Below are positions 24,792 through 46,235 of a stretch of DNA of 64,000 nucleotides, piece by piece. Under the pieces are notes generated by a model. That model worked only from the letters and a program-made list of their open reading frames with translations, was not told the DNA's origin and did not search any database. The stretch is taken from NCBI RefSeq assembly GCF_003387075.1, contig NZ_QUMQ01000001.1, positions 2,046,001-2,110,000 on the forward strand. Reading direction: 5' to 3'. A program made the translations under genes and the position numbers. Origin of the DNA: Asanoa ferruginea. Lineage in GTDB: Bacteria; Actinomycetota; Actinomycetes; Mycobacteriales; Micromonosporaceae. Each line of letters opens with the position of its first letter. Position 1 is the first letter of the stretch.

Positions 24792-24815
24792 TCCGGGCGT
24801 CCGAAAGGAACACCG

Positions 24816-25046: not shown

Positions 25047-25048
25047 CC

Positions 25049-25498: not shown

Positions 25499-25941
25499 GA
25501 CCTCTGAGCGAGCGCGGTTCGGCCTCTGTCGAGGTCGCCATCCTGCTGCCCGCGTTCATCATGCTGATGGTGGTGGCGTCGTTCGTCGGGCGGGTGACCA
25601 TCGCGCAGAACGCCGTCGACCTCGCCGCACACGACGCCGCCCGGGCCGCGTCGATCGAGCGCGAAGGCGACCGTGCGGCGGCTGCGGCCACCGACGCCGC
25701 CAACGACACCCTCGACGAGCTCGACGTGCTCTGCGCGAGCCGCACGATCACCCCCGACGTCGCGGGCGCGTTCGCCAACACCGACTTCGGCCCACAGGAA
25801 GGCGCGCCGCCGGTGGTCACCGTGACCGTCGAATGCAGCCTCAACTTCGTCGGCTTCCCGTTGCTCGACTTCACGACGCGCGACGTGACGGCCCGCTACA
25901 CCTCCCCACTCGACTGGTATCGCGGCCGGAGCGCCGGATGA
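25495..25941 (+). CDS. TadE-like pseudopilin 2
   Basis: A 148-residue TadE-type protein with a short leader and classic segment ERGSASVEVAILLPAFIMLMVVASFVGRV (Glu in SVEVA). The periplasmic part (ITPDVAGAFANTDFGPQEGAPPVVTVTVECSLNFVGFPLLDF) has two cysteines, in DVLCASR and VECSLN, that could pair. Start overlaps the first TadE-like gene by 4 bases, and its stop overlaps the annotated TadG-like start by 4 bases. Confidence 0.82.
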   Translation: MRPLSERGSASVEVAILLPAFIMLMVVASFVGRVTIAQNAVDLAAHDAARAASIEREGDRAAAAATDAANDTLDELDVLCASRTITPDVAGAFANTDFGPQEGAPPVVTVTVECSLNFVGFPLLDFTTRDVTARYTSPLDWYRGRSAG

Positions 25942-26582: not shown

Positions 26583-26602
26583 CTCCACGGCAGGAGGAAC
26601 CT

Positions 26603-31125: not shown

Positions 31126-31899
31126 TTACACCGGCGCGTACTTGGCGAGGAACGCGAACAGGGCCGTCCGGATCTTCGCGTCTCCGCCTTCGATGACCAG
31201 CGGCACGCCGTGGATGGCGCCGGACGTGACCAGGGCCTGGGCGTCCGGGCTGGCCGTCGAGGCCGCCTTCAGCTCGGTGGCCGCGTCGCCGATGATGCCG
31301 TCGTTCTCGTTGGCCACGTAGAGGACCGGAACGGAAAGCGTCGCGGCCGCCTGTTGGGCGCTCACCCCGGCGTAGGCCAGTGGCGCCGACACCGACACGA
31401 CGCCGGCCACCGGTGGGGTGATTTTCGGTGCGGCGGCGACCGAGAACGTGCCGCCCATCGACGCGCCGATCAGCACGATCGAGGTCGCGCCATCGGCGCG
31501 CAGGGTCGCCGCGGCCGCCACCACGTCGTCGTCGAAGCCGACCTCGCTGCTCTCCGAGGCACCGTGCCCGTGGAAGTCGAACGCGAGCACCTTGTAGCCC
31601 TTGCCGATCAGCTCGTTGAAGCCCAGGATCCATTGGCACAGGTTGGCCTCGGCCTGGTGGGCCAGCACCACGCCGGCGGTGCCGGTGCCGCCGATCAGGC
31701 CGGCCAGGTTGGTCGCGCCGGCAGCACCGAAGTGCACCGGCTTCGCGCCGACGCCCTCGGCCATGCCGGGGCACTCGCCGCCCGGCACGGGGCCGGTCGG
31801 GCTGGGCGCCGCGGCAGCAGTCGTGCCGCCGTCGTCACCGCCGCATCCGGCCAGCAGAAGTGTGAGCGCGGCCGCGCAGGCCACAATCCCCCGTCGCAT
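31126..31899 (-). CDS. Secreted alpha/beta-hydrolase lipoprotein
   Basis: A 257-residue lipoprotein: signal MRRGIVACAAALTLLLAGC with lipobox LAGC (Cys19), a Gly/Ala/Pro linker, then an alpha/beta-hydrolase domain. The first strand reads GVVLAHQAEANLCQWI, the nucleophile elbow is GASMGG (Ser about 145), the acid is in VPVLYVANENDGII and the His in SGAIHGVPLVI. It is related to dienelactone-hydrolase-type or esterase enzymes. It follows the GH87 genes on the same strand after 73 bases and may act on acylated polysaccharide or debris, but that is inference. Confidence 0.85.
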   Translation of the reverse strand: MRRGIVACAAALTLLLAGCGGDDGGTTAAAAPSPTGPVPGGECPGMAEGVGAKPVHFGAAGATNLAGLIGGTGTAGVVLAHQAEANLCQWILGFNELIGKGYKVLAFDFHGHGASESSEVGFDDDVVAAAATLRADGATSIVLIGASMGGTFSVAAAPKITPPVAGVVSVSAPLAYAGVSAQQAAATLSVPVLYVANENDGIIGDAATELKAASTASPDAQALVTSGAIHGVPLVIEGGDAKIRTALFAFLAKYAPV

Positions 31900-31972: not shown

Positions 31973-34900
31973 TTAGTTGATGATCAGCTGGAACGTACTC
32001 GTCGTGTTCTTGATGTTCTGGAAGTTGTTGCTGAAGGTCAGGTTGTTGAACGTCGCGGAGCCGACCGCCGGGCCTTGACCGGGCTCGGGCAGCTCGTTGA
32101 CCCAGATGCCGAAGCCGGACTTGGCGTCGAAGGCGTCACCACTCTTCTGCACACCCGAGATCGAGACGTTCGTGAAGACCGTGTCCTGCACCGGGTTCTG
32201 CGGAGAGCTCCCGACGTAGTTGGTCTGGAACATGATTCCGGTGTACGTCGGATCGACAATGTCGATATTGGACAATCTGATGGCCCGGAACTCCTTGGAT
32301 GCCGAGAACATCCAGATCGCTCCGAAGGTCTGGCCGCCCCAGAAATGGCCACCCGCTCGGACGAGCGAGATGTTGTCGAACGTGGTTATCCCCGGCCCGA
32401 ACCCGACGAACGGGTAACCGAAGTCCAGGGAGCTGATCGTCAGACCGGAGTAGGTCAGCATGTCGGCGATGTAGAGGTTGCGGAAGGTGTTGTTCTGCCC
32501 GCCGTAGACCGCCACACCGGCCGCCCGCCAGGTCAGCGTCGCCGAGAGGTTCTCGAAGACGTTGCCGGTGTTGGCACCGCCGCCCGCGTCGGTGGCCGAG
32601 AACAGCGCGAACGCGTCGTCGCCGTTGCCCCGGCCCTCGTTGTTGGAGATCAGGTTGTCGGTGCTGCCGTTGGTCATGTTGACGCCGTCGGCGAACGTGT
32701 TGCGGAGGCGGCTGTTGGTGATCTTCAGACCGCTGACGCTCACGCCCCAGTAGGCACAGACCGTGTGCTCCACCCAGACGTTGTCGATCGTCATGTTGTC
32801 GACGTTGGAGAGCTCACCCCAGACCTTGCCCGGCCCGTCCTGGCGGGACGTGTAGTTGCCGAAGAAGGCGAGGTGCTCGAACGACGACCCGCTGGCCGAC
32901 GACTGCACGTCGAAGCCCGCGTTGGTGTTCTCCTGGGTCTGCGGTGTCTGGAACCGGGTGTACCAGATGCCGGCGCCGACCACCTTGATCGCGCGCCCGT
33001 AGATGGTGAACTTGTTGCTGGTGTCGTAGGTGCCCGCCGGCAGGTAGACGCCGAGCGAGGTGGTGTCCTGGCGGGCCGCGTCGAACGCCGCCTGCACCTC
33101 TTGCTGGCTGGTGCCGGCCGGCACCTTGTAACGCGTCGGGTCCGGGTTGGCCCGCGGCGCGACCTGCTCGAGGTTGATGAAGTCGACGGTCGCCTCGGTG
33201 CCACTGTCCTTCTGCAGCTTGATCGTGGCGCCGGCCGGGATCGACGAGTTCAGCATGATGTTGGCTTCGTCGTAGATGTGCCGCGGTCCCGAACCAGGCG
33301 AGTTGCTCGGGCCCGCCTCGGCGCCGTAGAGCCAGGCGTACCGCGAGTTCAACGGGATCGCCTTGTGCAGCGTGCCGTTGACGTAGATGTTCAGCGACGA
33401 CGACTGGCCGCCGCCGCCCGCGGAGTCCGGGATCGAGAACCGGACGACCAGGGTGTTGGTCGGGTTGCGGGTGGTCCACTGGACGAACGAGCCGTTGCTG
33501 GGCAGGCGCACCGCGCGCCGGCCCGACGCCTCGCCGGCGAGGTCGCCGATGGTCCGGTTCGGCGCCAGCGACTGCGCGCCGCCACCGATCGTGCCGTCCT
33601 CGGCCTCATACATGTCGTAGGGCATGTTGGCGCCGCGCCCGGCGAAGAACGGCCGGTCGCTGGTGTTGTTGGTGCGCTTGACCGGCAACTCGTTGGCGTC
33701 GTCGGCGAGCACGACGCGCACCGTGTAGCGGCCGTTGGCGGCCGTCCACGTGCCCATGTTGACCGCGGCCGCGGTGGCGCCGGCGGCGATCGTGCCGCTG
33801 AACGACCCGGTCAGCGTGCGGACCACGGTCCCGGCCTCGTTGAGCACCGTGAGCGTGATGCCGTGCGAGCCGCTGGCCGAGGCGATCGTGCCCTGGTTGC
33901 GGATGGCCACCGAGAAGGTGACCGTCTGCCCGGCCGACGGGTTGTTGGGCGACCAGCTGACGCTGCCGGCGACCAGGTCGGAGCTCTGCACCTGGCCGAC
34001 GACGAGGTTGCCACCGGTGAAGGTGTTGTTGGCGTCGCTCTGCTCGATCACCGTGTTGCTCTCGTCGACCTTGGCGACCAGCTGGTAGGTGCCGGCGTCG
34101 CGCGGGCCGATGTTGGACGTGACGGTGACCTGCCCGCCGGCCGCGAGTGCGCCGACGTTGGCCGTGGCGACCTTGGTCGTGCCCAGGTAGAGGCCGACCG
34201 TGGTGGCGCCGGAGGCGGCGTTGCCGATGTTGCGGACCGTCGCCGACAGGGTGATCGAGTCGGTCTCGATCGGGCTGGCCGGCGAAGCGGAGATGGCGCT
34301 GACCGTCAGGTCCGGGTTGGGCGCCGGGGTTCCGATGACCTGGAACTCGGCGACCTGGCCGTTGGACGAGCCGGAGTTGGCGGTGAAGGTGAGCCGGACG
34401 TCGGCGACGTTCCCGCTGACCGGGATCGTCACCGTGTTGCCGCCCGAGGTCGGGCTGAAGCTGTAGGTCGCGGAGCCGACGAGCGTGGTGAACGTCGACG
34501 AGCTCTGCTCGCGACCCTGGACCGACAGGGTCTGCGTGCGCGCACCCCACTCGGTGCCCGGCGGCAGCTTGATGACGACCGAGCTGACGGTCGCGTTCGC
34601 GCCGAGCGAGACGGTCAGCGTGCTCGGGTAGGCACCGCCGGCGCCCTCCCAGTAGGTGCTGGTCGAGTCGTCGTTGGCGTTGGCGGCCACGAACGTGAAC
34701 ACCGTCGACGAGGCCGCGATCGGCTTGCCAACGGCCAGGTTGGTGCCGGTCGGGTTGCCGGTGCCAGCGCGGGTGACGGTGTTGCTGTTTCCGGAGACGT
34801 TGCCGGCCGCGTCCTTGGCCCGCACGTAGTAGGAGACGGTCGCCGTCGCCGGCTGGCTGTCGGTGTAGGTCAGCACGTTGCCCGCGACGCTGGCCCGCAC

Positions 34901-36265
34901 GGAGCCGTTGGCGTAGACGTCGTAGCCGGTCACGCCGACGTTGTCGGTCGACGCCGTCCAGGTCAACCGGATCTGGCCGGAGCCAGGCTCGGTGTAGGCG
35001 AGGTTCGAAGGCGCCGACGGCGCCTGGGTGTCGGTGGAGGTGCCCGTCCGGGTCACCGTGTTGCTGTTACCCGAGACGTTGCCGGCCGCATCCTTGGCCC
35101 GCACGAAGTAGGCGACCGTCGCGCTGTCCGGCTGGGAGTCGGTGTAGGTGGTGACGTTGCCGACGCTGGTCCGCAGAACACCGTTGGCGTAGATGTCGTA
35201 GCCGGTCACGCCGACGTTGTCGGTGGAAGCCGTCCAGGTCAGGCGGATCTGGCCGGAGGCCGGCTGGGTGAACGCCAGGTTGGTCGGCGCGCTGGGCGCC
35301 TGGGTGTCACCGGTGGTCGGGCCGTAGACCTCGAACTCGGAGATCTGGCCGGCCGGCCAGGCGGTGTTGGCGGTGATGTTCAGCCGGACGTACCGCGTGG
35401 TCCCCTGGGTGAAGGTGATCGACACGGTGTTGCCGCTGGCCGGGTCGAACACCCGGGCCGCCGACGCGGAGAGGTCGCTGAACGTCGAGCCGTTGGTGCT
35501 GCCCTGCACGGACAGCGTCTGGGTGCGCGCGCCCCAGCCCGAGGTCGGCAGCTTCAGCACGACCCGGTTGACGGCCACGGCCGCGCCGAGGTCGACCTGG
35601 ACCCACTCCGGGAAGGAGTTGTTGACGCTCTCCCAGTAGCTGCCCTGGTTGCCGTCGACCACGTTGCCGGAGCCGTAGACGTCGGAGTGCCCGCTCTCAC
35701 TGGTCGCCTTGCCCAGCGCCAGGTTGCTCGAGGTGGTGGCGGTGCCGTAGACCTCGATCGCGGACAGCTGGGCGGCGCCCCAGCCGGTGTTGGCGGTGAC
35801 GTTGACCCGCACGTAGCGGGTGTTCGTCGCGCTGAAGTTGATGGTCACCGTGTTGTTGTTGGCGGGCGAGAAATCCCGGCCGGCCGACGAGACGATCGTC
35901 GAGAAGCCGGAGCCGTCGGTGCTGCCCTGGATCGAGAGCGTCTCGGTGCGCTGGCCCCACCCGTCGGGGAGTTTCAGCACGACCTGGTCGATGCTGGTCG
36001 TGCTGCCCAGGTCGACCTGGCCCCACTGGGGCAGGGCGCCGGAGCTTTCCCAGTAGCTGCCCTTGTTGCCGTCGGTGAGGTTGCTCGCGACGAAGCCGTT
36101 GTTGGTGCTGCTCGCCGAGGCGGGACGGCCGGCGGCGAGGTTGGGACCGCCGGCCGCGGCGGCGGGCGTGGTGGCCACGGCCGAGAGGACCGAGCCGACG
36201 AGCAGGGTCGAGAGTGTGCCGGCTATTAACCGCCACGTGACACGTCGGTGCCGGGATCGGGACAT
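31973..36265 (-). CDS. GH87 alpha-1,3-glucanase (mycodextranase-type), N-terminal binding modules
   Basis: A 1430-residue secreted enzyme. Signal peptide 1-38; discoidin/CBM32-like domains at about 41-174, 180-315 and 508-645; two fibronectin III domains at 320-408 and 412-500; two CARDB-type Ig folds at 650-757 and 762-870; an EAEDG-type beta-sandwich at about 880-1035; and a C-terminal GH87 beta-helix at about 1040-1430. The catalytic motif FADGVN...GNGDDAF places Asp at 1193, 1216 and 1217. This D, +23, +24 spacing equals that of the three catalytic Asp described for GH87 enzymes. Such enzymes cut alpha-1,3-glucan (fungal wall, mutan). The ATG at 36265 starts the signal peptide. Confidence 0.9.
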   Translation of the reverse strand: MSRSRHRRVTWRLIAGTLSTLLVGSVLSAVATTPAAAAGGPNLAAGRPASASSTNNGFVASNLTDGNKGSYWESSGALPQWGQVDLGSTTSIDQVVLKLPDGWGQRTETLSIQGSTDGSGFSTIVSSAGRDFSPANNNTVTINFSATNTRYVRVNVTANTGWGAAQLSAIEVYGTATTSSNLALGKATSESGHSDVYGSGNVVDGNQGSYWESVNNSFPEWVQVDLGAAVAVNRVVLKLPTSGWGARTQTLSVQGSTNGSTFSDLSASAARVFDPASGNTVSITFTQGTTRYVRLNITANTAWPAGQISEFEVYGPTTGDTQAPSAPTNLAFTQPASGQIRLTWTASTDNVGVTGYDIYANGVLRTSVGNVTTYTDSQPDSATVAYFVRAKDAAGNVSGNSNTVTRTGTSTDTQAPSAPSNLAYTEPGSGQIRLTWTASTDNVGVTGYDVYANGSVRASVAGNVLTYTDSQPATATVSYYVRAKDAAGNVSGNSNTVTRAGTGNPTGTNLAVGKPIAASSTVFTFVAANANDDSTSTYWEGAGGAYPSTLTVSLGANATVSSVVIKLPPGTEWGARTQTLSVQGREQSSSTFTTLVGSATYSFSPTSGGNTVTIPVSGNVADVRLTFTANSGSSNGQVAEFQVIGTPAPNPDLTVSAISASPASPIETDSITLSATVRNIGNAASGATTVGLYLGTTKVATANVGALAAGGQVTVTSNIGPRDAGTYQLVAKVDESNTVIEQSDANNTFTGGNLVVGQVQSSDLVAGSVSWSPNNPSAGQTVTFSVAIRNQGTIASASGSHGITLTVLNEAGTVVRTLTGSFSGTIAAGATAAAVNMGTWTAANGRYTVRVVLADDANELPVKRTNNTSDRPFFAGRGANMPYDMYEAEDGTIGGGAQSLAPNRTIGDLAGEASGRRAVRLPSNGSFVQWTTRNPTNTLVVRFSIPDSAGGGGQSSSLNIYVNGTLHKAIPLNSRYAWLYGAEAGPSNSPGSGPRHIYDEANIMLNSSIPAGATIKLQKDSGTEATVDFINLEQVAPRANPDPTRYKVPAGTSQQEVQAAFDAARQDTTSLGVYLPAGTYDTSNKFTIYGRAIKVVGAGIWYTRFQTPQTQENTNAGFDVQSSASGSSFEHLAFFGNYTSRQDGPGKVWGELSNVDNMTIDNVWVEHTVCAYWGVSVSGLKITNSRLRNTFADGVNMTNGSTDNLISNNEGRGNGDDAFALFSATDAGGGANTGNVFENLSATLTWRAAGVAVYGGQNNTFRNLYIADMLTYSGLTISSLDFGYPFVGFGPGITTFDNISLVRAGGHFWGGQTFGAIWMFSASKEFRAIRLSNIDIVDPTYTGIMFQTNYVGSSPQNPVQDTVFTNVSISGVQKSGDAFDAKSGFGIWVNELPEPGQGPAVGSATFNNLTFSNNFQNIKNTTSTFQLIIN

Positions 36266-36332
36266 GATGGGGGTTGCACCTCTTCCGTGAGGAGTTCCGT
36301 GGAGTCGGAAGGCGCTTGCGGGGATGGCGCTC

Positions 36333-36365
36333 CGGGAGGGCCGCCAAGGCAGGGCGGCCCTCCCG
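36333..36365 (-). terminator. Hairpin between the two GH87 genes
   Basis: Perfect 13-bp stem CGGGAGGGCCGCC/GGCGGCCCTCCCG with a 7-base loop, 11 bases past the stop of the upstream GH87 gene on the minus strand. It may end or attenuate transcription between the two enzymes. Confidence 0.7.
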
Positions 36366-36375
36366 TTTGGTGCGG

Positions 36376-39300
36376 TCAGGAGGCGTAAACCTCGTACTCC
36401 GAGAGCTGGCCGGCCGGCCAACCCGTGTTGCCGGTGAAGGTCAGCCGCAGCCAACGCTGCGACGTCGCGGTGAACGTGATGGTCACCGTGTTGCCGGACG
36501 CGGGGTTGAAGGTCCGCCCGGCCGCGCCGGACAGGGTGGTGAAGGTCGAGTTGTTGGTGGAGCCCAGGACCGCGACCGTTTGGGTACGCGTCTGCCACGC
36601 CGTCGCCGGCGGAAGCTTGAGCACCACCCGGGAAACGGACTGGGCACTGCCGAGGTCGACGGTCAGCGACTGCGGGAACGCGTTGTTGGCGCTCTCCCAG
36701 TAGCTGTTGGCGTTTCCGTCGACCGCGTTGCCGGCGCCGTAGACGTCGGCGTGGCTGGTCTCGACGATCGGTCGGTTGAGGGCGAGGTTGGTCACCGGTG
36801 GCGTCGTGGTGGTGCCCACGCCGGTGAGGCTGACGGTGTGCGGTGAGCCCGGTGCGTTGGACGCGATCGACAGGGTGCCCGTGCGGGTGCCCGAGCCGGT
36901 CGGCGTGAAGGTGACGTTGGCGGTGCAGGACGCGCCGGCCGCCAGCGATCCGCAGTTGTTCGTCTGCGCGTAATCGCCCGTGACCGACAAAGAAGAGATC
37001 GACGCGCTCGCGTTGCCGGTGTTGGTGACAGTCACCTGCTGTGCCGCGCTGGTCGTGCCGACCTGCCGGCTGGCGAAGGTCAGCGCGCCCGGCGTGACGG
37101 CGAGCGCCGGGCCGGTCGAGCCACCACTGCCGTAGACCTCGAACTCGGAGAGTTGCGCGGCCGGCCAGACGTTGTTGCTGTTGATGGTCAGCCGGACGAA
37201 CCGCCGGGTGCCCGCGGGCAGGTTGACGGTGACCGACGAGCCCTGGTTGAAGGTGTAGTTGGCGGCGCCCAGGATCTGCGAGTAGGTGCCGCCGTCGGTG
37301 GAGCCCAGGACGGTGATGTTCTGGGTGCGGGTCTCCCAGTTGGTCGGGAGCTTGAGCACCAGCCGCCCGACGGACTGGGCGGAGCCCAGGTCGACGGTCA
37401 ACGACTGCGGGAACTGGCCGTTGTTGCTCTCCCAATAGGAGGCGACGTTGCCGTCGACCGCGTTGGTCGCCGGGTAGGGGCCGTTGGCGCTGGTCGCGGT
37501 CACCGGGCGGCCCGCCGCGAGGTTTCCGGCCGGGTCGAAGCCGACGCCCGAGAGCCCAATCACCAGGTCACCCGGTGTGGTCTGAACGAACGCCGTGCCC
37601 GACCGGTTGCCGGCGGCGGTCGGCCGGAAGGTGACCGTGAGGGTGCAGGTGGCGTTCGGCGCCAGGGTGGTCGGACAGTTGTTGGTCTGGCTGAAGTCGG
37701 CCGGGCTGACCGAGATGCCCGACACCGGAGCGTTGGCGGTGCCGCTGTTGCGCAACGTCACGGTCTGCGGCGCGCTGGTCGTGTTGAGGTTCTGCGTGCC
37801 GAAGGTGACGCTGCTCGGGCTGGCCACGATCTGCCCGGTCGGTGTCGGCGGCGTGGTGGTCGGCGGCGTGGTCGGACCATTGTTCCACTGTGGATCCGGC
37901 CACGGCCCGCAGTCCGGCGTCGCGGTATACCAGCCGGAGTTGCCGGCGCCCTGGGTGATCTGGAATCCAGAGCCCACGCAGTTGTGGATCGGTTTGGCCT
38001 GGGCGATCCCGGTCGCCACCACGTTGGTGAAGGAGACCTGGCTGGCCGCCTGCACCTGTAGTGCGTACGTGCCGGCGCCCTGGATTCTGACGTTGGTGAA
38101 GTTGATTCCCCTGGTTTGCCCCTCGATCCAGTGCAGGGCGGCGTAGGAGCTGTCGATGATGTCGGTGTCGGTGATGTTGATGGCCGCGTCGCTGGCGAAC
38201 GCCTCGTTGAGCGCCGAGAACCAGATCGCGCCGACCCCGAAGTTCCAGTTGTAGTCGGAGTTGCCGGCCCGGATCGTGGTGTTGCGGGCGATCGTCCAGG
38301 TGCCGTGCACCGCGGTGGTGCCCTGCACGCCCGGATAGCGGTTGGCGACGTGGATGCCGCCGCCGTTGGTGAGCGAGTCGGCGACCACGTTGTCGGTGAT
38401 CTTGATGTCCCGCCCGCCGTAGCTGACCAGGTGGTTGGCGAGCAGCGTGACGCCGATCGTGTTGTGGCTGAAGGTGTTGTTGACGTTGGGCACGTTCTGC
38501 GCCCACATCGCCAGCGCGTCGTCGCCGGTGTTGCGCAGGAACGTGTTGGTCACCGTCGAGTTCGTGACGCCGGTGTGGAAGTTGACCCCGTCGGCGGTCT
38601 GGTCGAGGATCCGGCTGTTCTGGATCGTGAAGTTGTCCATCGGGCCGTCCATCCAGGCGCCGACCTTGGTGTGCTGCACCCAGACGTTGTCGATGACCGA
38701 GTTGGTCATCGCACCGCCGAACGCGTTGACCTGGTCGTCGTCCATCCGTTCGCGGATGTCGCCGATGATGGCGAGGTCGCGGACGGTGACGTTGCGGCTC
38801 GGCCCGCCGGCCTCGTGCGACCGGATCTCACCGGTGTAGCCGCCGCCGGACACGTATTTGCCGTAGATGCCGGCCGCGCGCTTGCGGTCGGTGGGGTGCC
38901 GGCCGCCGAGCACCGTGTACCACGGCCCGGCGCCGCGCAGCGTCACGCCGTCGACCACGACGTGGTCATAAAGCGTGAAGTTCCCCTGGGGTACGTAGAC
39001 CGCCCGGCCCTGGGCCTGACCGGCGTTGACGGCCGCCTGGAACTTGGCGGTCGAGTCGGTGGCGCCGGTCGGGTCCGCGCCGAAGTCGGCCACGACATCC
39101 AGAGCGTTGGTCGGCTTGCCGATCGCCCCGGGGACGTTCTCGAAGTCGGCGAGGTCGATGGTGAAGGTCGGCGACTGCGCGGTCGAGTTGACCTGGAGCC
39201 GGATCTTCGTGCCGATCGGCTGCGTCGAGCCGAACATGGCCCGCGCCTCGTCGTAGAAGTGGTGCGGGTTGGTGTCGCCCGGGTTGTTGTTGAACGGGTA

Positions 39301-39795
39301 GCCGCCGTAGTACCAGCCGTACTTCGAGGTCACCGGCACGGTCTTGAGCAGGGAGCCGTTGGCCCGCAGGTCGATGGTCGCGTCGCGACCCGCGCCACCG
39401 GGACCGTCCGGGATGCTGTAGCGGAAGGTCACCGCGTTGGCCGGCGCGGTCAGGGTGAACTCGACATACTCGCCGACGGCGTCGAGGGTGACCGCCTCCC
39501 GACCGGATGCCTCCGCCGGAAGCTGGCCATAAAAGCGGGTCGGACCGATCTTGGTGCCGTTGTGCGCGACCTTCTCCGCCTCCTGCTCGATGAACGGGAC
39601 GGTCGCGCCTCGGCCGACGATGTCAAACGGAGACAGCCCGGCCGCGACGGCGGGCGATCCGGTGGCCAGTGTGACCACCGCGATGCTGCCGGCCACCAGG
39701 GCGGAACTCGCCAGAATGGCGAGCCCCGCCCGGCGCCGGGTGATGGGCGGTGCGCTGCCGGCTGTGGGCGCAGCGACGGCGTCATGGTTGGGCAT
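36376..39795 (-). CDS. GH87 alpha-1,3-glucanase, N-terminal catalytic domain
   Basis: A 1139-residue secreted enzyme with a long N-region and signal helix ending near residue 52 (GSPAVAAG). A beta-sandwich at about 55-225 precedes the GH87 beta-helix at 228-640 (DVVADFGADPTGATDSTAKFQAAV...). The catalytic motif TADGVNF...RNTGDDALAMW gives Asp 402, 425 and 426, the same D, +23, +24 spacing as the neighbour. After a Thr/Pro linker come a choice-of-anchor D Ig fold (658-757), a discoidin domain (763-895), a second anchor-D fold (900-1000) and a final discoidin domain. Module order is the mirror image of the neighbouring GH87. Confidence 0.9.
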   Translation of the reverse strand: MPNHDAVAAPTAGSAPPITRRRAGLAILASSALVAGSIAVVTLATGSPAVAAGLSPFDIVGRGATVPFIEQEAEKVAHNGTKIGPTRFYGQLPAEASGREAVTLDAVGEYVEFTLTAPANAVTFRYSIPDGPGGAGRDATIDLRANGSLLKTVPVTSKYGWYYGGYPFNNNPGDTNPHHFYDEARAMFGSTQPIGTKIRLQVNSTAQSPTFTIDLADFENVPGAIGKPTNALDVVADFGADPTGATDSTAKFQAAVNAGQAQGRAVYVPQGNFTLYDHVVVDGVTLRGAGPWYTVLGGRHPTDRKRAAGIYGKYVSGGGYTGEIRSHEAGGPSRNVTVRDLAIIGDIRERMDDDQVNAFGGAMTNSVIDNVWVQHTKVGAWMDGPMDNFTIQNSRILDQTADGVNFHTGVTNSTVTNTFLRNTGDDALAMWAQNVPNVNNTFSHNTIGVTLLANHLVSYGGRDIKITDNVVADSLTNGGGIHVANRYPGVQGTTAVHGTWTIARNTTIRAGNSDYNWNFGVGAIWFSALNEAFASDAAINITDTDIIDSSYAALHWIEGQTRGINFTNVRIQGAGTYALQVQAASQVSFTNVVATGIAQAKPIHNCVGSGFQITQGAGNSGWYTATPDCGPWPDPQWNNGPTTPPTTTPPTPTGQIVASPSSVTFGTQNLNTTSAPQTVTLRNSGTANAPVSGISVSPADFSQTNNCPTTLAPNATCTLTVTFRPTAAGNRSGTAFVQTTPGDLVIGLSGVGFDPAGNLAAGRPVTATSANGPYPATNAVDGNVASYWESNNGQFPQSLTVDLGSAQSVGRLVLKLPTNWETRTQNITVLGSTDGGTYSQILGAANYTFNQGSSVTVNLPAGTRRFVRLTINSNNVWPAAQLSEFEVYGSGGSTGPALAVTPGALTFASRQVGTTSAAQQVTVTNTGNASASISSLSVTGDYAQTNNCGSLAAGASCTANVTFTPTGSGTRTGTLSIASNAPGSPHTVSLTGVGTTTTPPVTNLALNRPIVETSHADVYGAGNAVDGNANSYWESANNAFPQSLTVDLGSAQSVSRVVLKLPPATAWQTRTQTVAVLGSTNNSTFTTLSGAAGRTFNPASGNTVTITFTATSQRWLRLTFTGNTGWPAGQLSEYEVYAS

Positions 39796-39892
39796 GGGTT
39801 CCCTTCCGAGAGGTGGGACGATCCCCCCGTGCGTGGTGCCCTTTGGTGCGCGTACCCCCGTGGTCTAGAAGTGCCGTGGAGCCGGATAAAGG

Positions 39893-41515
39893 TCAGGCAG
39901 TGCGGAGCCACGCGGTGGTGTCGGCCGGCAGCCGGTCGCCGTCGAGCGGACCGCTCGCCAGCCACACCTCCTCGTGGTCGGGCAGGTCGACGGCGGCCGT
40001 CGACAGGTTGGCAACGCAGACGAACCGCGGGTCGCGGGCGAACGCCAGCACCCCGTCGGCCGACGGCAGCCAGCGCATCGCGCCGTCACCGAGCGCCGCC
40101 ACGTCGCGCCGAATGCGCAGCGCTTCGCGGTAGAGCTCGAGCATCGAGTGCGGGTCACCGGTCTGCGCCTGAACGGTGCGGTCCTTCCAGTCGGCCGGTT
40201 GCGGCAACCACGGCGCCGACGAGCCGGTCGGGCTGAACCCGAACGGTGACTCGACGCCGGACCACGGCAGCGGCACCCGGCAGCCGTCGCGGCCGGGGTC
40301 GACGAAGCCGGACCGCGGGTACATCGGGTCGGTGCGCATCGCGGGCGGGATGTCTTCCACCTCCCAGAGGCCCAGCTCGTCGCCCTGGTAGATGTAGGCG
40401 CCGCCGGGCAGCGCCAGGCAGAGCAGCGCGGCCGCCCGCGCCCGTTGGTAGCCGAGCTGCAGGTCGGTCGGCGTCCCTTCGCGCTTGGTCGCGAAGCTGA
40501 ACGTGGTGTCCTCCCGGCCATAGCGGGTGACCGGCCGGGTGACGTCGTGGTTGGCGAGCACCCAGGTGGCCGGCGCACCGACCAGCGCGTGCGTCTCCAT
40601 CGTGCGGTCGATGCAGGCCCGCAGCAGGTCCGGGTCCCAGGCGCAGGTCAGGAAGTCGAAGTTGAACGCTGTGTGCAGCTCGTCGGGACGCAGGTAGTTG
40701 GTGAACCGCTCCGCGTCGGGCAGCCAGACCTCGCCGATCAGCGCGCGGCCGCCGGGGTATTCGTCGGCGATCCGCCGCCAGCTCCGGTAGACCTCGTGCA
40801 CCCCGTCCAGGTCGTGGAAGGGGTGCCGCTCGGCTGCTTCGACCTCCGGCAGCGCCGGGTCCTTCAGCAGCAGCGCGGCCGAGTCGATCCGGATGCCGTC
40901 GATGCCGCGGTCGAACCAGAAGCGCAGGATGCTCTCGAACTCGGCCCGGACCTTCGGGTGGTCCCAGTTGAAGTCCGGCTGTTCGGGTGCGAAAAGGTGC
41001 AGGTACCACTCGCCCGGAGTCCCGTCGGCGTTGGTCGTGCGGGTCCACGTGGTGCCCTTGAACTCGCCCCGCCAGTCGGTGGGCATCTCGTCGCCGTTGG
41101 GTCCGCGACCGGGGCGGAACCAGAACAGCTCGCGCTCCGGCGAGCCCGGGCCGGCGGCCAGTGCGGCCTGGAACCAGGGGTGCTGGTCAGAGCAGTGGTT
41201 CGGCACGATATCGACGATCACCCGGATGCCGCGCGCGTGCGCCTCGGCGATCATCGCCTCGGCCTCGGCGAGCGTGCCGAAAAGCGGGTCGATGTCGCGG
41301 AAGTCCGACACGTCGTAGCCCGCGTCCGCCATCGGCGACGGAAACCACGGGCTCAACCAGACCGCGTCGACCCCGAGCCCGGAGAGGTGGTCCAGGTGTG
41401 CCCTGATGCCGGCGATGTCGCCGATGCCGTCGCCACTACCGTCGGCGAAGCTACGGGGGTAGATCTGGTAGATCACCGCCCCGCGCCACCACGGCTCGCG
41501 TTCTGCGATGGACAC
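39893..41515 (-). CDS. GH13 alpha-glucosidase (cytoplasmic)
   Basis: A 540-residue GH13 enzyme with no signal peptide. The four GH13 regions are VDIVPNHCSD, DGIRIDSAAL (nucleophile Asp), LIGEVWLPD (acid/base Glu) and VLANHDVTRPV, and the early QIYPRSFADGSGDGIGDIAGI marks the oligo-1,6-/alpha-glucosidase branch. It would release glucose from imported alpha-linked oligosaccharides. The start is a GTG at 41515 ahead of SIAEREPWWRGAVIYQIYPRS; longer readings enter the permease gene out of frame. It lies 80 bases after the permeases and 97 bases before the GH87 gene. Confidence 0.92.
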   Translation of the reverse strand: MSIAEREPWWRGAVIYQIYPRSFADGSGDGIGDIAGIRAHLDHLSGLGVDAVWLSPWFPSPMADAGYDVSDFRDIDPLFGTLAEAEAMIAEAHARGIRVIVDIVPNHCSDQHPWFQAALAAGPGSPERELFWFRPGRGPNGDEMPTDWRGEFKGTTWTRTTNADGTPGEWYLHLFAPEQPDFNWDHPKVRAEFESILRFWFDRGIDGIRIDSAALLLKDPALPEVEAAERHPFHDLDGVHEVYRSWRRIADEYPGGRALIGEVWLPDAERFTNYLRPDELHTAFNFDFLTCAWDPDLLRACIDRTMETHALVGAPATWVLANHDVTRPVTRYGREDTTFSFATKREGTPTDLQLGYQRARAAALLCLALPGGAYIYQGDELGLWEVEDIPPAMRTDPMYPRSGFVDPGRDGCRVPLPWSGVESPFGFSPTGSSAPWLPQPADWKDRTVQAQTGDPHSMLELYREALRIRRDVAALGDGAMRWLPSADGVLAFARDPRFVCVANLSTAAVDLPDHEEVWLASGPLDGDRLPADTTAWLRTA

Positions 41516-41595
41516 TGGATACCTGCTTTCTTTCTTTTCGGGTGGTTCGGGAGCGCGGTCTGCTCTGACCGCCGTTGCTGCTGGTAGAGGGATAG

Positions 41596-42564
41596 CTAGC
41601 CCTTCATACTCCCTGCCGCCAATCCGCCGATGATGCTGCGCTGGAAAATGAGGAAAACTACGATCATCGGCACGCTGGCGATCGCGAGACCCGCCATGAG
41701 CTGGGTCGGCGGCACCTGGCTGGTCGATGCGAGCCGGCTGAGCGCGACGCTGAGCGTCTGCGTCTCCGGGTCCTGCAAGACCAGCAGCGGCCAGATGAAG
41801 TCCTTCCAGATCGCCACGATCGAGAAGATCGACACGACGCCCAGCACCGGACGCGACAGCGGGAGCACGATGCTCCACAGCACCCGGAACCGGCCGGCGC
41901 CGTCGAGGGCGGCGGAGTCGAGCAGGTCGTTGGGGATCTGGTCGAAGAACCGCTTGAGCACGTAGATGTTGAACGCGTTGGCGACCGCCGGCAGCCACAG
42001 CGCCCAGGGTGTGTTCAGCAGGTTCCAGCCGAAGATCGGCACGTCGGTCACGGTCAGGTAGGCCGGGATCAGCAGCGCGGTCGCCGGCAGCATCAGGCTG
42101 GCCAGCATCAGGCCGAGCACGACCTTGCCGAAGATTGGACGCAACTTCGACAACGCGTACGCGACGGCGACCTGGAAGACGAGCTGGATGAGCCAGCCGC
42201 CGAGCGCGTAGAACGCGGTGTTGGCGAAGAACTTGGCGATCCGCATCCGGTCCCAGGCGAGCTGGTAGGTCTCCGGCACGAAGGTGTGCGGGAACAGCGT
42301 CGGGTCCGGCTGCGCATACTCCTCCGGCGTCTTCACCGCGCTGCTGAACATCCAGTAGAGCGGGAAGATGAAGATCGCCAGGAAGAGCAGGAAGACCAGG
42401 GTCAGGGTCAGCCAGTAGAGGAACCGGCCCTTGCCGCGGCTGATCTCGACCTCGGAGAACAGCGTGCGGGTGGCGCCGGACCCGCTGGCCGACCGGCGCC
42501 GGCGGGGCGCGGGTGCCACCGGCGGCGTCGCCGGCAGCGGCCGGATCGGCGTGGCGATCGTCAT
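41596..42564 (-). CDS. Sugar ABC transporter permease (MalG/LacG-like)
   Basis: A 322-residue CUT1-family permease with six helices (first WLTLTLVFLLFLAIFIFPLYWMFSSAVKTPEEY). The cytoplasmic EAA loop is LLDSAALDGAGRFRVLWSIVLPLSRP, where the coupling helix meets the ATPase. The C-terminal motif IIGGLAAGSMKG is typical of MalG-like permeases. It overlaps nothing and starts 12 bases after the first permease. No ATPase gene is present, so a shared MsiK-type ATPase is likely used, as in other actinomycete sugar importers. Confidence 0.93.
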   Translation of the reverse strand: MTIATPIRPLPATPPVAPAPRRRRSASGSGATRTLFSEVEISRGKGRFLYWLTLTLVFLLFLAIFIFPLYWMFSSAVKTPEEYAQPDPTLFPHTFVPETYQLAWDRMRIAKFFANTAFYALGGWLIQLVFQVAVAYALSKLRPIFGKVVLGLMLASLMLPATALLIPAYLTVTDVPIFGWNLLNTPWALWLPAVANAFNIYVLKRFFDQIPNDLLDSAALDGAGRFRVLWSIVLPLSRPVLGVVSIFSIVAIWKDFIWPLLVLQDPETQTLSVALSRLASTSQVPPTQLMAGLAIASVPMIVVFLIFQRSIIGGLAAGSMKG

Positions 42565-42576
42565 CGGTGGTCCCCC

Positions 42577-43488
42577 TCAGTCCCGGTCACGGGTCACCCG
42601 CAGGTAGATGGCGGAGAAGATGCCCAGCACCACGAACAGCAGCACGCTCATCGCGGCGGCCATGCCGAAGTCCTGGTTGACGGTGAACGCGTACCGGTAG
42701 ATCAGCACCATCACCGTGACGGTGTCCGGATTGGACGTTCCGGTGAGCTGGTATGGCTCGATGAACACCTGCATCGTCGCGATGATCTGAAGCAGCAGCA
42801 GGACCAGCATGATGAAGCGGAGCTGGGGCAGCGTCACATGGCGCAGCCGGCGCCAGGCGCTGGCGCCGTCGAGCTCGGCCGCCTCGTAGAGGTCGCCGGG
42901 GATGCTTTGGAGTGCCGCGAGATACATCAGCGTCGCGCCGCCAAGGTTGGCCCAGGTGGAGACCAGGACCAGCGAGATCATCGCGGTCTTCGACGACTGG
43001 GTCCACTGCGACTCGGGCAGGCCGACGCCGCGCAGGATCGTGTTGAACAGGCCGAAGCCGGGGTCGTAGAAGTAGCGGAAGAGCAGCACGCCGACGATCG
43101 GCGGGAGCATCACCGGGAGATAGACGGCCACCCGGAAGAAGCCCTTGAGGTGCCGCATCTCATTGATCAAGATCGACAGCGCCAGGGGTACGAGGAAGCC
43201 GAAGATCAGCGCGATGCCGGTGAAGATGAGGGTGTTCTTCCACGCCGTGACGAACAGCGGGTCCTTGAAGATGGCGGTGAAGTTGTCGGTGCCGACCCAG
43301 TAGGGATCGGTCACGAAGTTGATCTGCTGGAAGCTCAGGATCACACCGCGGACCAGCGGATACCACGAGAAGAACGCGAAACAGGCGATGCCTCCGGCCA
43401 TGAAGGCGTACGCCATGAGGTTGTCCTGGATCTTCCGGCTCAGGCGGCTGCGAAACCCAGCCGGCCGGCCGGCGGTGGCGACCGCCAT
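42577..43488 (-). CDS. Sugar ABC transporter permease (MalF/LacF-like)
   Basis: A 303-residue CUT1 permease with six predicted helices. It has FMAGGIACFAFFSWYPLVRGVILSFQ at the N-terminus, the EAA loop YEAAELDGASAWRRLRHVTLPQLRF and a last helix AAAMSVLLFVVLGIFSAIYLRVTRDRD. It pairs with the downstream permease. A stable stem-loop separates it from the binding-protein gene, probably lowering its expression relative to that protein. Confidence 0.93.
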   Translation of the reverse strand: MAVATAGRPAGFRSRLSRKIQDNLMAYAFMAGGIACFAFFSWYPLVRGVILSFQQINFVTDPYWVGTDNFTAIFKDPLFVTAWKNTLIFTGIALIFGFLVPLALSILINEMRHLKGFFRVAVYLPVMLPPIVGVLLFRYFYDPGFGLFNTILRGVGLPESQWTQSSKTAMISLVLVSTWANLGGATLMYLAALQSIPGDLYEAAELDGASAWRRLRHVTLPQLRFIMLVLLLLQIIATMQVFIEPYQLTGTSNPDTVTVMVLIYRYAFTVNQDFGMAAAMSVLLFVVLGIFSAIYLRVTRDRD

Positions 43489-43520
43489 CTCCAGCGTCCT
43501 CTTTCAGGGGTTTTGGCGGA

Positions 43521-43558
43521 CCGCCGCCGGGGCCCGGTTCAGTAGGCTCCGGCGGCGG
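43521..43558 (-). terminator. Stem-loop between binding protein and permease genes
   Basis: CCGCCGCCGG (43521-43530) pairs perfectly with CCGGCGGCGG (43549-43558), and the stem extends inward by four pairs including one G-T. Such hairpins often stabilise the binding-protein message or attenuate the permeases in sugar-importer operons. Confidence 0.6.
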
Positions 43559-43567
43559 CCACGATGG

Positions 43568-44935
43568 TTACTTGACGCTGGCGAGGATGCCGTTGACCTG
43601 GGTCTCGGCGTCCTTGAGCAGCTTGGCGATGTCGGCGTTCTTGTCGGTCAGCACCTTCTGCATCGGCACGTCCAGCACCGCGTAGATCTGCTGCGCGTTC
43701 GGCGGCTCGACCTTCAGCGGGATGTTGGCGGTGGCGTCAGCGAACGGCTTGTAGTTCTCGACCGGCAGGTTCTTCAGCTTGTCGATCGCCGCCTGCTGCT
43801 TGGCCTTCGCGTCACCGGTCCACAGCGCCGGCTCGGGCAGGCCGACCGGGGTCTTCTGCGAAGCGGCCCACTCGTACTCGGTCGCGATCCGGTCCGGGTT
43901 GTCCCACCAGAACGTCAGCCACTTGAGGCCGGCGCGGATCTTCTCGGGCGTGGCCTTGGCGTTGAACATGTAGCCCTCGCCACCGGCCAGGGTGGCGGTG
44001 CCGTTCGGGATCGGGCCCAGGCCGTACTTGTTGAAGTCGCCCTTGAACTGGTTGACGATCGTCTCGATGTTGTCCGGGGCGGCCATGTACATGCCGAGCT
44101 TGCCGGAGCCCATCATCTGGAGCAGGTCGGCCCACTCCAGGAGCTGGCGCTGGCCCATGCTGTTGTCGGTCCAGCGCATGTCCTTGAGCTGCTGGAGGAC
44201 CTGGGTGCCCTTCTCGTTGTTGAAGGCCGCCTTCCAGGTGCCACCCTCGTTGACCGCCACGTCGCCACCGAGCGAGTACATCCCCGCGGTGAAGTGCCAG
44301 CCACCGGTGTTGTTCTTGCTGTAGTCGCCGTAGCCGACGTAGTCCTTGCCCAGGGCGCTGATCGCCTTGGCCGCGGTGCGGACCTCGTCCCAGGTCTTCG
44401 GCGGGTTGTTCGGGTCGAGCTTGGCCTGGGTGAACAGGTCCCGGTTGTAGAGCAGGCCGAGCGAGTAGTTCTTCGCGGGCAGGCCGTAAACCTTGCCGCC
44501 GTCGTCCGAGAAGATCTTCATGAGATCCGGCCGGATCTCCTTGGTCGGCGCGAACTCGCCGAGGTATTTGCTGATGTCAGCGACCTGGCGCTTAGCGATC
44601 AGGCTGGCCGGGTCGGTGAAGTAGACGTAGAAGACGTCCTCGAGCTGGCCACCCGCGAGCTTCGACTGGAAGGTCTGCGGGTCCATCTTGCCTTCTTTGG
44701 CATCGATGTCGATGTTCGGGTTGAGCTTCTCGAACTCGGCGACGTTGTCAAGGAAGTGCTTGCGGTTGACCGCCTCGGTGTCCGGCGGCAGGCCGTTGAT
44801 GACGAGCGTGACCTTGGCATTGGGGTCAGAAGCCGGTGCGTTGCCGCCGTCGTCGGAGCCGCACGCGGCCGCCGACAGCGCGACCCCGGCGACCAGCAGC
44901 AGCCCGACGGCGCTACGCAACCTGGATCTGTTCAT
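43568..44935 (-). CDS. Sugar-binding lipoprotein of the ABC importer
   Basis: A 455-residue CUT1 solute-binding protein. Signal and lipobox are GLLLVAGVALSAAAC, with the lipidated Cys near residue 25 followed by GSDDGG. The SBP_bac_1 fold is visible from VTLVINGLPPDTEAVNRKHFLDNVAEFEKLNPNI to the C-terminus, with DVFYVYFTDPASLIAKRQVADIS and YMFNAKATPEKIRAGLKWLTFWW. Aromatic residues are frequent, as expected for a sugar site. It is the first gene of the operon and probably captures alpha-1,3-linked glucose oligomers released by the GH87 enzymes (inference from context). Confidence 0.93.
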   Translation of the reverse strand: MNRSRLRSAVGLLLVAGVALSAAACGSDDGGNAPASDPNAKVTLVINGLPPDTEAVNRKHFLDNVAEFEKLNPNIDIDAKEGKMDPQTFQSKLAGGQLEDVFYVYFTDPASLIAKRQVADISKYLGEFAPTKEIRPDLMKIFSDDGGKVYGLPAKNYSLGLLYNRDLFTQAKLDPNNPPKTWDEVRTAAKAISALGKDYVGYGDYSKNNTGGWHFTAGMYSLGGDVAVNEGGTWKAAFNNEKGTQVLQQLKDMRWTDNSMGQRQLLEWADLLQMMGSGKLGMYMAAPDNIETIVNQFKGDFNKYGLGPIPNGTATLAGGEGYMFNAKATPEKIRAGLKWLTFWWDNPDRIATEYEWAASQKTPVGLPEPALWTGDAKAKQQAAIDKLKNLPVENYKPFADATANIPLKVEPPNAQQIYAVLDVPMQKVLTDKNADIAKLLKDAETQVNGILASVK

Positions 44936-45017
44936 GAGGTGAACGCCCTTCCTGGGTGGAGCGGGGATTCTCGGGTGTGTGATGTGGCTCTCTCACGTGC
45001 CATGTTTCGTGGCGATG

Positions 45018-45046
45018 ACGATACAAAGCCGAACTAGCTCTCGCAA
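45018..45046 (-). promoter_or_regulatory. Likely promoter of the sugar importer operon
   Basis: On the minus strand, TTGCGA (45046-45041) and TATCGT (45023-45018) are 17 bases apart, about 83 bases before the binding-protein start. Confidence 0.5.
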
Positions 45047-45081
45047 GAAGCTGACTGGTCTCAGAAAAAACACGACTTCAT

Positions 45082-45097
45082 CTGGGAGCGCTCCCAG
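45082..45097. promoter_or_regulatory. LacI-type operator of the sugar importer operon
   Basis: Perfect 16-bp palindrome CTGGGAGCGCTCCCAG with the central AGCGCT typical of LacI sites, 35 bases upstream of the putative -35 box and 60 bases from the adjacent LacI gene end. It differs from the GGAGAGCGCTCTCC sites elsewhere in the window, so it is probably the site of the adjacent regulator. Confidence 0.7.
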
Positions 45098-45106
45098 TTC
45101 GGGCAC

Positions 45107-45140
45107 AAATATGGGCGGGCCCGTTGGCCCGCCCATATTT
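45107..45140 (-). terminator. Terminator of the LacI gene
   Basis: Perfect 14-bp stem AAATATGGGCGGGC/GCCCGCCCATATTT with a 6-base loop, 17 bases after the regulator stop. The AT-rich base of the stem supplies the U-rich tail on the minus strand, separating the regulator from the importer operon. Confidence 0.85.
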
Positions 45141-45157
45141 ACGGTTATCTGTGCAGG

Positions 45158-46165
45158 TCAGCGCGAGCGAGCCGGCCCGGTGGAGCCGCGCACCACCAAC
45201 TCGGGCTCGAAGAGAAGTTCGTCGGTGTTGACCCCGACGCCTTCGATCTGGTTGACCAGGATGTCGACGGCCGCCTGGCCCATCATCTCGATGGGCTGGC
45301 GGATCGTGGTCAGCGGCGGGTCGGTGCAGGTCATCAGCCCCGAGTCATCGAAGCCGATCACCGAGATGTCATCGGGCACCTGCTTGCCGAGCCGGCGCAC
45401 GGCGCGGATCGTGCCCAGCGCGATCACGTCGCTGGCACAGATCAGCCCGGTGGCGCCCTTGTCGATCAGCTTGGTGGCCGCGACCCGGGCGCTCTCCATC
45501 GAGAAGCTGGTGCGACCGACCCACTCGGTGATGTCGTCTGGCCCCCACCCGGCGGCCTCGGCCATGGCGGTCAGCTTGCGCCGCGAGGGCATGTGGTCTT
45601 CCGGGCCGAGCACCAGGCCGATCCGCTCGTGGCCGAGCGAACGCAGGTGCCCGTAGGCCTGCTCGACCGCCACCGCGTCGTCGGTCGAGACGTGCGGGAA
45701 CGGCAACTCGTCGACGCCGGCGTTGACCAGCACCACCGGCAGGCCACGGTCGGTGAGCTGGCGATAGTGCTCGTGCTTGGCGTCGGCCAGCGCGTAGTTG
45801 CCGCCGGCGAAGATCACGCCGGAAACCTGGTGGTCGAGCAGCATGTCGACGTAGTCAGGCTCCGAGATGCCGCCGATGGTGCGGGCGCAGAGGGCCGGGG
45901 TCAGGCCGCGCTGGGCGAGCGAGCCGGTCACCACCTCGGCGAGGGCGGGGAAGATCGGGTTTTGCAGCTCGGGCAGCACGAGGCCGACGAGCCGGGCGCG
46001 CTCGCCGCGCAGCTTCGTCGGGCGCTCGTAGCCGAGCACGTCGAGCGCGGTCAGCACCGCGGTGCGCGTCGATTCGGAGACACCGTCGCGACCGTTGAGC
46101 ACCCGGCTCACGGTCGCTTCGCTGACGCCGGCCTTGCGCGCGACCTCGGTCAGTCGTCTGGTCAC
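45158..46165 (-). CDS. LacI-family regulator of the alpha-glucan locus
   Basis: A 335-residue LacI repressor. HTH and hinge are RRLTEVARKAGVSEATVSRVLNGRDGVSESTRTAVLTALDVLGYERPTKLRG at residues 3-54. The effector domain includes LVGLVLPELQNPIFPALAEVV, GLICASDVIALGTIRAVRRLGKQVPDDISVIGFDDS and PPLTTIRQPIEMMGQAAVDIL. Start is a GTG at 46165 directly before the HTH. A strong terminator ends the gene and a 16-bp palindrome lies just beyond, in front of the importer operon, which it probably represses until an imported sugar binds. Confidence 0.93.
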   Translation of the reverse strand: MTRRLTEVARKAGVSEATVSRVLNGRDGVSESTRTAVLTALDVLGYERPTKLRGERARLVGLVLPELQNPIFPALAEVVTGSLAQRGLTPALCARTIGGISEPDYVDMLLDHQVSGVIFAGGNYALADAKHEHYRQLTDRGLPVVLVNAGVDELPFPHVSTDDAVAVEQAYGHLRSLGHERIGLVLGPEDHMPSRRKLTAMAEAAGWGPDDITEWVGRTSFSMESARVAATKLIDKGATGLICASDVIALGTIRAVRRLGKQVPDDISVIGFDDSGLMTCTDPPLTTIRQPIEMMGQAAVDILVNQIEGVGVNTDELLFEPELVVRGSTGPARSR

Positions 46166-46235
46166 GGCGCAAACTGTACGTCATCTTTTTGCAAGAACAC
46201 GACAGCCATTTGCCCGACCCCGTCATGGCCACCGG

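Follow-up and report, generated by a model that had tools for sequence, protein, structure and literature searches.

A probable alpha-1,3-glucan utilisation locus with two GH87 enzymes in Asanoa ferruginea and its actinobacterial relatives

Introduction

Which polysaccharide is served when a LacI-family repressor, a sugar importer, a glycosidase and two GH87-type proteins (glycoside hydrolase, GH, family 87) lie together on one strand, and what controls such a set? The question is raised by positions 31973-46165 of a 64,000-nucleotide stretch of the Asanoa ferruginea genome, here called the window (positions 2,046,001-2,110,000 of a 9.07 Mb single contig). Alpha-1,3-glucan is an important polymer both of fungal cell walls and of dental biofilms, and we consider it likely that the genes form a Gram-positive polysaccharide utilisation locus (PUL) for this polymer, whether as mutan or as fungal cell-wall glucan. 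That reading is well supported by comparative genomics, and the GH87 family membership and catalytic triad of the two enzymes are directly observed. An original prediction made from this DNA had proposed an alpha-1,3-glucan degradation locus under a palindromic LacI operator: the GH87 identity, the importer, the repressor and the co-occurrence of GH87 with the importer's solute-binding protein (SBP) all bear out its first part, while the operator has to be reassigned.

Results and Discussion

Gene content of the locus

Read along the minus strand, the seven genes encode a LacI-family repressor, the SBP, permeases F and G, a GH13 enzyme, GH87b and GH87a, with successive intergenic gaps of 222, 79, 12, 80, 97 and 110 nucleotides. 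Content, order, single strand and extent are as had been predicted, and Pfam, applied with curated cut-offs to the window proteins, confirms the families. The first gene (45158-46165, minus strand; 335 amino acids) carries PF00356 and PF13377 (LacI and Peripla_BP_3), so that the expected LacI repressor gene is indeed present. NCBIfam was also searched; the listed matches of the importer, GH13 and LacI proteins (for GH13, the best 25 of 31) all fell below the model cut-offs and it therefore supplied no named function for them.

The GH87 enzymes

GH87a (31973-36265, minus strand) and GH87b (36376-39795, minus strand) both contain the two catalytic domains of the family, CatAgl_D1 (PF22815) and CatAgl_D2 (PF22816), at 243 and 366 bits in the former and 160 and 59 bits in the latter, against a cut-off of 27 for each domain. 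The best-scoring solved relative of GH87a is Agl-FH1 (PDB code 6k0m; 541-residue alignment, E 9.9e-129) and that of GH87b is the enzyme from Streptomyces thermodiastaticus (7c7d; E 2.8e-105). The two GH87-type proteins had first been recognised by an Asp triad spaced D, +23, +24. This triad is real in both, being D1193/D1216/D1217 in GH87a (codons at 32687-32689 and 32615-32620) and D402/D425/D426 in GH87b (38590-38592 and 38518-38523), and in each case it aligns on the catalytic Asp columns D1045/D1068/D1069 of Agl-FH1, numbered and assigned roles in PMC10696023 (this and the other PMC articles are cited for the parts of their text available to us). Among the PDB chains aligned to GH87a, two carry Ala in place of one or other of these Asp residues. 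The spacing itself is not diagnostic: the bare pattern D-x22-DD occurs six times in the 18,698 residues encoded by the genes called in the window, four of them outside the GH87 proteins. It was accordingly rejected as sufficient evidence, and the assignment is carried by the hidden Markov model and sequence matches. The pattern D-[GA]-[VI]-N-x19-DD has two matches in the called window genes, one in each GH87 protein.

The two enzymes differ in architecture. In GH87a three F5/8C (discoidin) domains, fn3 and CARDB domains precede a C-terminal catalytic unit; in GH87b an N-terminal catalytic unit is followed by choice-of-anchor D and F5/8C domains. Both N-termini resemble signal peptides by eye. 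GH87a and GH87b are thus members of GH87 and presumably secreted endo-alpha-1,3-glucanases, which together would cut alpha-1,3-glucan to nigero-oligosaccharides. With additional GH87 genes at 1.50 and 8.99 Mb, the genome has four in all. The paralogue at 8.99 Mb (locus L123, upstream of 11737) finds its best match among the compared proteins in GH87a, with 49% identity over 1372 amino acids.

That the four genes differ in score would fit a different substrate, a mixed-linkage alpha-glucan such as nigeran or alternan, with one of the GH87 proteins acting as a mycodextranase. GH87 does include mycodextranases, with an actinomycete cluster (PMC10696023, PMC13421300), a GH13 alpha-glucosidase would suit products containing alpha-1,4 and alpha-1,3 bonds, and cycloalternan is bound by the protein ranked fourth among the structural matches to the SBP model. 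The best solved relatives of GH87a and GH87b, in a comparison that included no mycodextranase, are nevertheless both alpha-1,3-glucanases, and we regard a mixed-linkage substrate as unlikely.

Importer and intracellular glucosidase

The importer is encoded in one operon by the CUT1-type SBP (43568-44935, minus strand; 455 amino acids, lipoprotein-like by eye; PF01547, SBP_bac_1, family 1, 87.8 bits) and by permeases F (42577-43488, minus strand; 303 amino acids) and G (41596-42564, minus strand; 322 amino acids), which match PF00528 (BPD_transp_1) at 61.1 and 55.8 bits respectively. There is no ATPase gene in the operon, in line with the three-part CUT1 importer lacking its own ATPase that had been proposed. 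Four MalK-type ATPases are encoded elsewhere in the genome, two of them without adjoining permeases: one at 2.78 Mb, which scores over the model cut-off for the UgpC subfamily and has unrelated neighbours, and one at 1.62 Mb, near treS. A shared MsiK-type ATPase encoded at such a distance would energise the importer, which would bring nigero-oligosaccharides into the cell.

The AlphaFold model of the SBP has a mean pLDDT (predicted local distance difference test) of 87.2. Most of the structural matches listed for it are to proteins that bind oligosaccharides, with close Z scores, and a search of PDB sequences with the SBP returned weak matches only; the ligand is therefore not readable from these comparisons.

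The GH13 alpha-glucosidase-like enzyme (39893-41515, minus strand; 540 amino acids) matches PF00128 (Alpha-amylase) at 327 bits and PDB entry 8yif at 515 bits. Its residues D211, E262 and D324, which from the conserved regions of GH13 we take to be the catalytic Asp/Glu/Asp, are invariant in all 26 aligned sequences. These 26 were drawn from the 55 available (window plus 54 loci), the alignment having been cut from 32 after a stop codon appeared in one row, with L060, L068, L072, L080, L087 and L090 left out; a corresponding SBP alignment comprised 37 sequences out of 71. The GH13 gene of Catenuloplanes japonicus (L060:13326-14882) has an in-frame stop codon, due either to sequencing error or to decay. 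By eye the window enzyme has no signal peptide and it is presumably cytoplasmic, where it would split the alpha-1,3 bonds of imported nigero-oligosaccharides to yield glucose.

The same genes could be read as a general alpha-glucoside operon, taking up maltose and malto- or isomalto-oligosaccharides, to which GH87 products are one input only. Thus the best solved relatives of the GH13 enzyme are alpha-glucosidases crystallised with acarviosin or acarbose (PMC12567066), operators of the TTGC type described below are common to maltose-type regulators (PMC5526262), and the aglEFG importer of Actinoplanes SE50/110, which may or may not be orthologous to that of the window, shows a strong increase on maltose relative to glucose (PMC6828939). 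On the other side, the SBP shares 18% identity with Streptomyces MalE (8art) in structural alignment, and the genome holds a separate MalF/MalG/MalZ/MalK-like set (best NCBIfam matches, all four below model cut-offs) as well as two other LacI-GH13 pairs, so that common alpha-glucosides may be served elsewhere. For the same reason the idea that these genes are the genome's only maltose-type system was rejected as unlikely. The distribution of GH87 also bears on this question.

Conservation and association with GH87

A single scan of genome contigs with the SBP gave 72 loci, whose genes were called by a custom script based on codon bias in place of a standard gene finder. The LacI-importer-GH13 core, scored as LacI with SBP and GH13, is present in 52 of them and the order LacI-SBP-F-G-GH13 is kept in 51 of the 52. 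GH87 lies within the examined stretch in 34 core loci and elsewhere in the genome for 13 others, making 47 of 52. Its position varies: after GH13 in Asanoa and the Actinoplanes group, before LacI in several Streptomyces, between permease G and GH13 in Catellatospora, and divergent in Actinomadura alba and Nonomuraea dietziae. Such varied placement suggests repeated association, not one frozen neighbourhood. In the Catellatospora loci (L062-L065) a single core is surrounded by additional LacI and GH87 genes. Within Asanoa the SBP is 93-95% identical in four species, and A. hainanensis and A. ishikariensis are among the genomes with an SBP match. Seventeen of the 20 non-core loci, 16 from Kribbella and one from a Streptomyces sp. 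(L097-L111, L114, L115), have an SBP of 37-39% identity and both permeases, with no LacI or GH13 match alongside; GH87 is encoded elsewhere in all five Kribbella genomes searched for it. The other three are L079, where the contig ends, L113 and L116.

The association was measured more broadly in 300 Micromonosporaceae genomes. With the SBP called at E<=1e-50 and GH87 at E<=1e-3, GH87 is found in 219 of 226 genomes with the SBP and in 1 of 74 without (the GH87 match in one of the 219, G015, is below the family cut-off). Under a stricter SBP threshold, 1e-100, the counts become 198 of 201 and 22 of 99, and at 1e-160 they are 57 of 57 and 163 of 243. Distances were taken for the 93 genomes with both matches listed, not for all 219: the best SBP and best GH87 are within 15 kb of one another in 64, far apart in 9 and on different contigs in 20. 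The locus is thus common in the family rather than rare, GH87 and SBP occurring together in 219 of the 300 genomes sampled, and it provides a defined gene set for putative GH87-based utilisation. Regulator, importer and glycosidases are co-localised here and co-occur across genomes, the pattern by which a Gram-positive PUL is recognised.

Several observations weigh against a dedicated alpha-1,3-glucan locus. No GH87 was found in five of the 52 core-bearing genomes, for which assembly completeness is not given (Streptomyces sp. BV286, Actinomadura craniellae, Actinomadura parmotrematis, Microbispora oryzae and Actinocorallia sp. API 0066). Together with the seven of 226 Micromonosporaceae that have the SBP and no GH87, they imply that the link between importer and GH87 is not a strict one, and in 29 of the 93 measured genomes the best SBP and best GH87 do not lie within 15 kb on one contig. 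The threshold of 1e-50 was picked after the values had been seen and takes in more divergent SBPs (about E 1e-60 to 1e-100) from outside the neighbourhoods read, and the co-occurrence count ignores phylogeny and treats as independent genomes that are not; a Fisher p-value for these counts is therefore not to be read literally. Within A. ferruginea itself, the SBP model is similar to proteins that bind many kinds of oligosaccharide, and two GH31 genes elsewhere could supply an alpha-1,3-glucosidase.

The core genomes without GH87, and the 13 in which it lies elsewhere, are what would be expected of a general alpha-glucoside operon. Set against them are the contrast between 219 of 226 and 1 of 74 and the recurrence of GH87 at the core in several different arrangements. 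We accordingly think it improbable that general uptake is the function, and retain alpha-1,3-glucan as the likely substrate.

Probable exchange of the importer genes

The importer may have a history partly separate from that of its neighbours. Loci L128-L131, from four relatives, have LacI and GH13 proteins 78-86% and 71-76% identical to those of the window, with SBP, permease F and permease G at only 46-47%, 52-54% and 51-53%; L130 keeps a GH87b of 84% identity, and no GH87 was found in the stretch examined for L131. For comparison L050, which has the window type of importer, shows 78, 70, 79, 71 and 71% identity for LacI, SBP, F, G and GH13 respectively. These identities are most simply explained if SBP, F and G were replaced together, as one unit, while the regulator and the GH13 enzyme stayed the same. 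SBPs of about 47-51% identity are listed for many further genomes, the neighbourhoods read being those of L128-L131.

Regulatory sites

The palindrome originally proposed as the operator does exist: a repeat search finds the perfect palindrome CTGGGAGCGCTCCCAG at 45082-45097. It extends a box, TGGGAGCGCTCCCA (45083-45096, no strand assigned), that is an exact copy of the 14-bp CebR consensus published for Streptomyces (PMC5332605). The box has two exact occurrences genome-wide against none for a reversed control and, allowing up to one mismatch, 14 against 1. The second exact copy lies 5' of a GH1 gene, and one-mismatch copies lie 5' of a GH6 gene, of a GH48 gene and, at three sites, of an SBP-F-G-GH1-LacI cluster; neighbouring genes were examined for only a minority of the remaining one-mismatch sites. 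In the last-named cluster (L151, at 4.336 Mb), which looks like cebEFG-bglC-cebR in its gene order, the three boxes fall within 170 nucleotides of the start called for its SBP.

In the locus considered here, the CebR box is present at the SBP promoter in all six Asanoa genomes, five times exactly and once with one mismatch. At up to two mismatches it is found in none of 24 LacI-SBP loci of other genera and, at the SBP-promoter position, in none of 48 other core loci (a set partly overlapping the 24); all these loci have LacI. The two-mismatch scan did find CebR-like sites elsewhere than at the SBP promoter in some loci, for instance two exact ones in L090 and one in L129.

A second kind of element is far more widespread. 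TTGCR is present in all 53 SBP upstream stretches compared (shuffle mean 29.8), CTTGCR in 40 (10.6) and YTTGCGRG in 23 (1.9 in shuffles), and direct repeats of TTGC separated by 17 or 18 nucleotides are present in 26, against 0.6 in shuffles. The window is not among the 26: its SBP promoter has one clear box, CTTCTTGCGA (45041-45050, minus strand), a candidate operator of the resident LacI that overlaps a plausible -35 element by eye, and a degenerate partner, TTTTTTC, 21 nucleotides upstream (45064-45070). TTGCR is likewise found in 57 of 60 lacI upstream stretches of 250 nucleotides, often near -30, a count made without shuffle control; in the window a box of this type, TCTTGCAAAA (46187-46196, minus strand), lies 5' of lacI as a candidate autoregulatory site. 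It counts against these figures that the motif was defined on the same sequences in which it was counted. The sites of MalR and AcrC are repeats of a similar half-site, CTTGC(A/T)G (PMC5526262).

Since at this promoter the palindrome is seen only in Asanoa while TTGC boxes are widespread, we assign the latter to the resident LacI and the former to CebR. The resident LacI's own sites are probably the MalR-like TTGC boxes, as candidate operators through which a MalR-type LacI would repress the importer operon and itself. The palindrome is a putative CebR-binding box, found at this promoter only in Asanoa, where it would add a cellobiose-responsive input. We rejected the view that it serves the resident LacI as operator, since it is absent from the SBP promoter of LacI-bearing loci in other genera. 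That it might be that operator after all, with the TTGC boxes acting as promoter elements, is suggested by its perfect symmetry, by its place upstream of the importer promoter and beside the LacI gene, by the overlap of TTGC with a plausible -35 element and by the single clear TTGC box of the window. Yet loci of other genera whose LacI is 68-86% identical have no such palindrome at the promoter, the box equals the CebR consensus of the literature (PMC5332605) and is a mark of cellulase genes in A. ferruginea, and TTGC pairs at 21-22 nucleotides in 26 of 53 stretches exceed what a lone -35 element would require. We therefore hold this alternative to be quite improbable, and keep the TTGC boxes as the candidate LacI operators.

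The CTTCTTGCGA box, a 10-mer chosen after two sites had been seen, occurs at 10 places genome-wide against 7 for its reversed control. One occurrence lies, in opposite orientation, upstream of the distant GH87 gene at 1.50 Mb; with the count so near the control, only that position is suggestive. Upstream of the 8.99-Mb GH87 gene are TTGC elements and a long palindrome. A small TTGC-linked regulon that includes the remote GH87 genes is possible. Taking all the comparisons together, one may tentatively picture a widespread actinobacterial alpha-1,3-glucan pathway with two interchangeable lineages of dedicated nigero-oligosaccharide importers, a distinct clade of GH13 alpha-1,3-glucosidases and, in Asanoa, a rewiring that brings fungal-glucan digestion under both the cellobiose sensor CebR and the resident repressor, a composite that we think somewhat doubtful as a whole.

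Other features of the window

A perfect 15-bp inverted repeat with a 4-nucleotide loop lies 3' of lacI (45107-45140, minus strand) and is terminator- or attenuator-like, with no strong T run; it is not listed by the terminator scan. The sigma-70 scan detected no promoter, other promoter types being outside that scan. An alpha/beta hydrolase gene (31126-31899, minus strand) follows 73 nucleotides 3' of GH87a on the same strand and may be co-transcribed. Further away, in an 856-residue protein (8979-11549, minus strand), Pfam recognises two F5/8C discoidin domains and nothing else; it is possibly another secreted glycan-acting protein. A further LacI-family regulator (6120-7154, plus strand) lies about 25 kb from the locus, and a run of membrane- or secretion-like genes at about 19125-27880 (plus strand) resembles a Tad pilus cluster by eye only.

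Comparison with known systems

Both window enzymes resemble the solved GH87 alpha-1,3-glucanases Agl-FH1 (6k0m), Agl-ST (7c7d) and 5zru, which we take to be Agl-KA, in possessing catalytic D1 and D2 domains and the three Asp residues. They differ in that two types stand side by side in one operon, the comparison being with the crystallised catalytic units. In the literature searched, which covered few subscription papers and is weak evidence of absence, we found no description of an actinomycete locus combining GH87, LacI, importer and GH13. The suggestion that such loci are little described holds to that extent; the locus is nonetheless common, and a cluster of GH87, LacI and ATP-binding cassette (ABC) genes has already been noted in Lachnoclostridium phytofermentans (PMC9061262). 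That cluster, comprising GH87, a GH65 nigerose phosphorylase, GH31_u1, ABC and LacI genes and proposed for nigerose degradation, resembles ours in placing GH87 close to an ABC importer and to LacI regulators. In this firmicute, however, the intracellular step falls to GH65 and GH31 where here it would fall to GH13, and the gene sets are not identical (PMC9061262).

GH87-based use of alpha-1,3-glucan is also the theme of a putative mutan PUL of Prevotella melaninogenica with GH87, GH97 and GH99, which unlike the present locus is of TonB type (PMC13421300). Its authors, writing in 2026, state that to their knowledge GH87-containing PULs have never been experimentally determined or characterised (PMC13421300). 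Closer in taxonomy are the mutan-growing isolates of Streptomyces castrisilvae and S. laculatispora, likewise actinomycetes, with GH87 among their tabulated carbohydrate-active enzyme families; that study offers phenotype and enzyme counts, and the words 'transporter' and 'LacI' are absent from the main text available (PMC11475409). The Asanoa locus and its relatives open two steps to test, namely a nigero-oligosaccharide importer and a GH13 clade as alpha-1,3-glucosidase.

On the regulatory side, MalR, AcrC and AmlR are similarly LacI-family proteins encoded beside an importer or GH13 gene, with the half-site CTTGC(A/T)G in the case of MalR and AcrC (PMC5526262, PMC6828939). Their targets, unlike those considered here, are maltose or acarbose genes, and GH87 is not mentioned in the available text of PMC6828939. 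Like the CebR/CebEFG cello-oligosaccharide regulon of Streptomyces (PMC5332605), the Asanoa locus has the 14-bp box, letter for letter, at the promoter of a sugar importer. CebR targets in Streptomyces are cellulose-related (PMC5332605), whereas the box here stands on a probable alpha-1,3-glucan operon, which opens to study how soil actinomycetes integrate signals from plant cellulose and from fungal walls.

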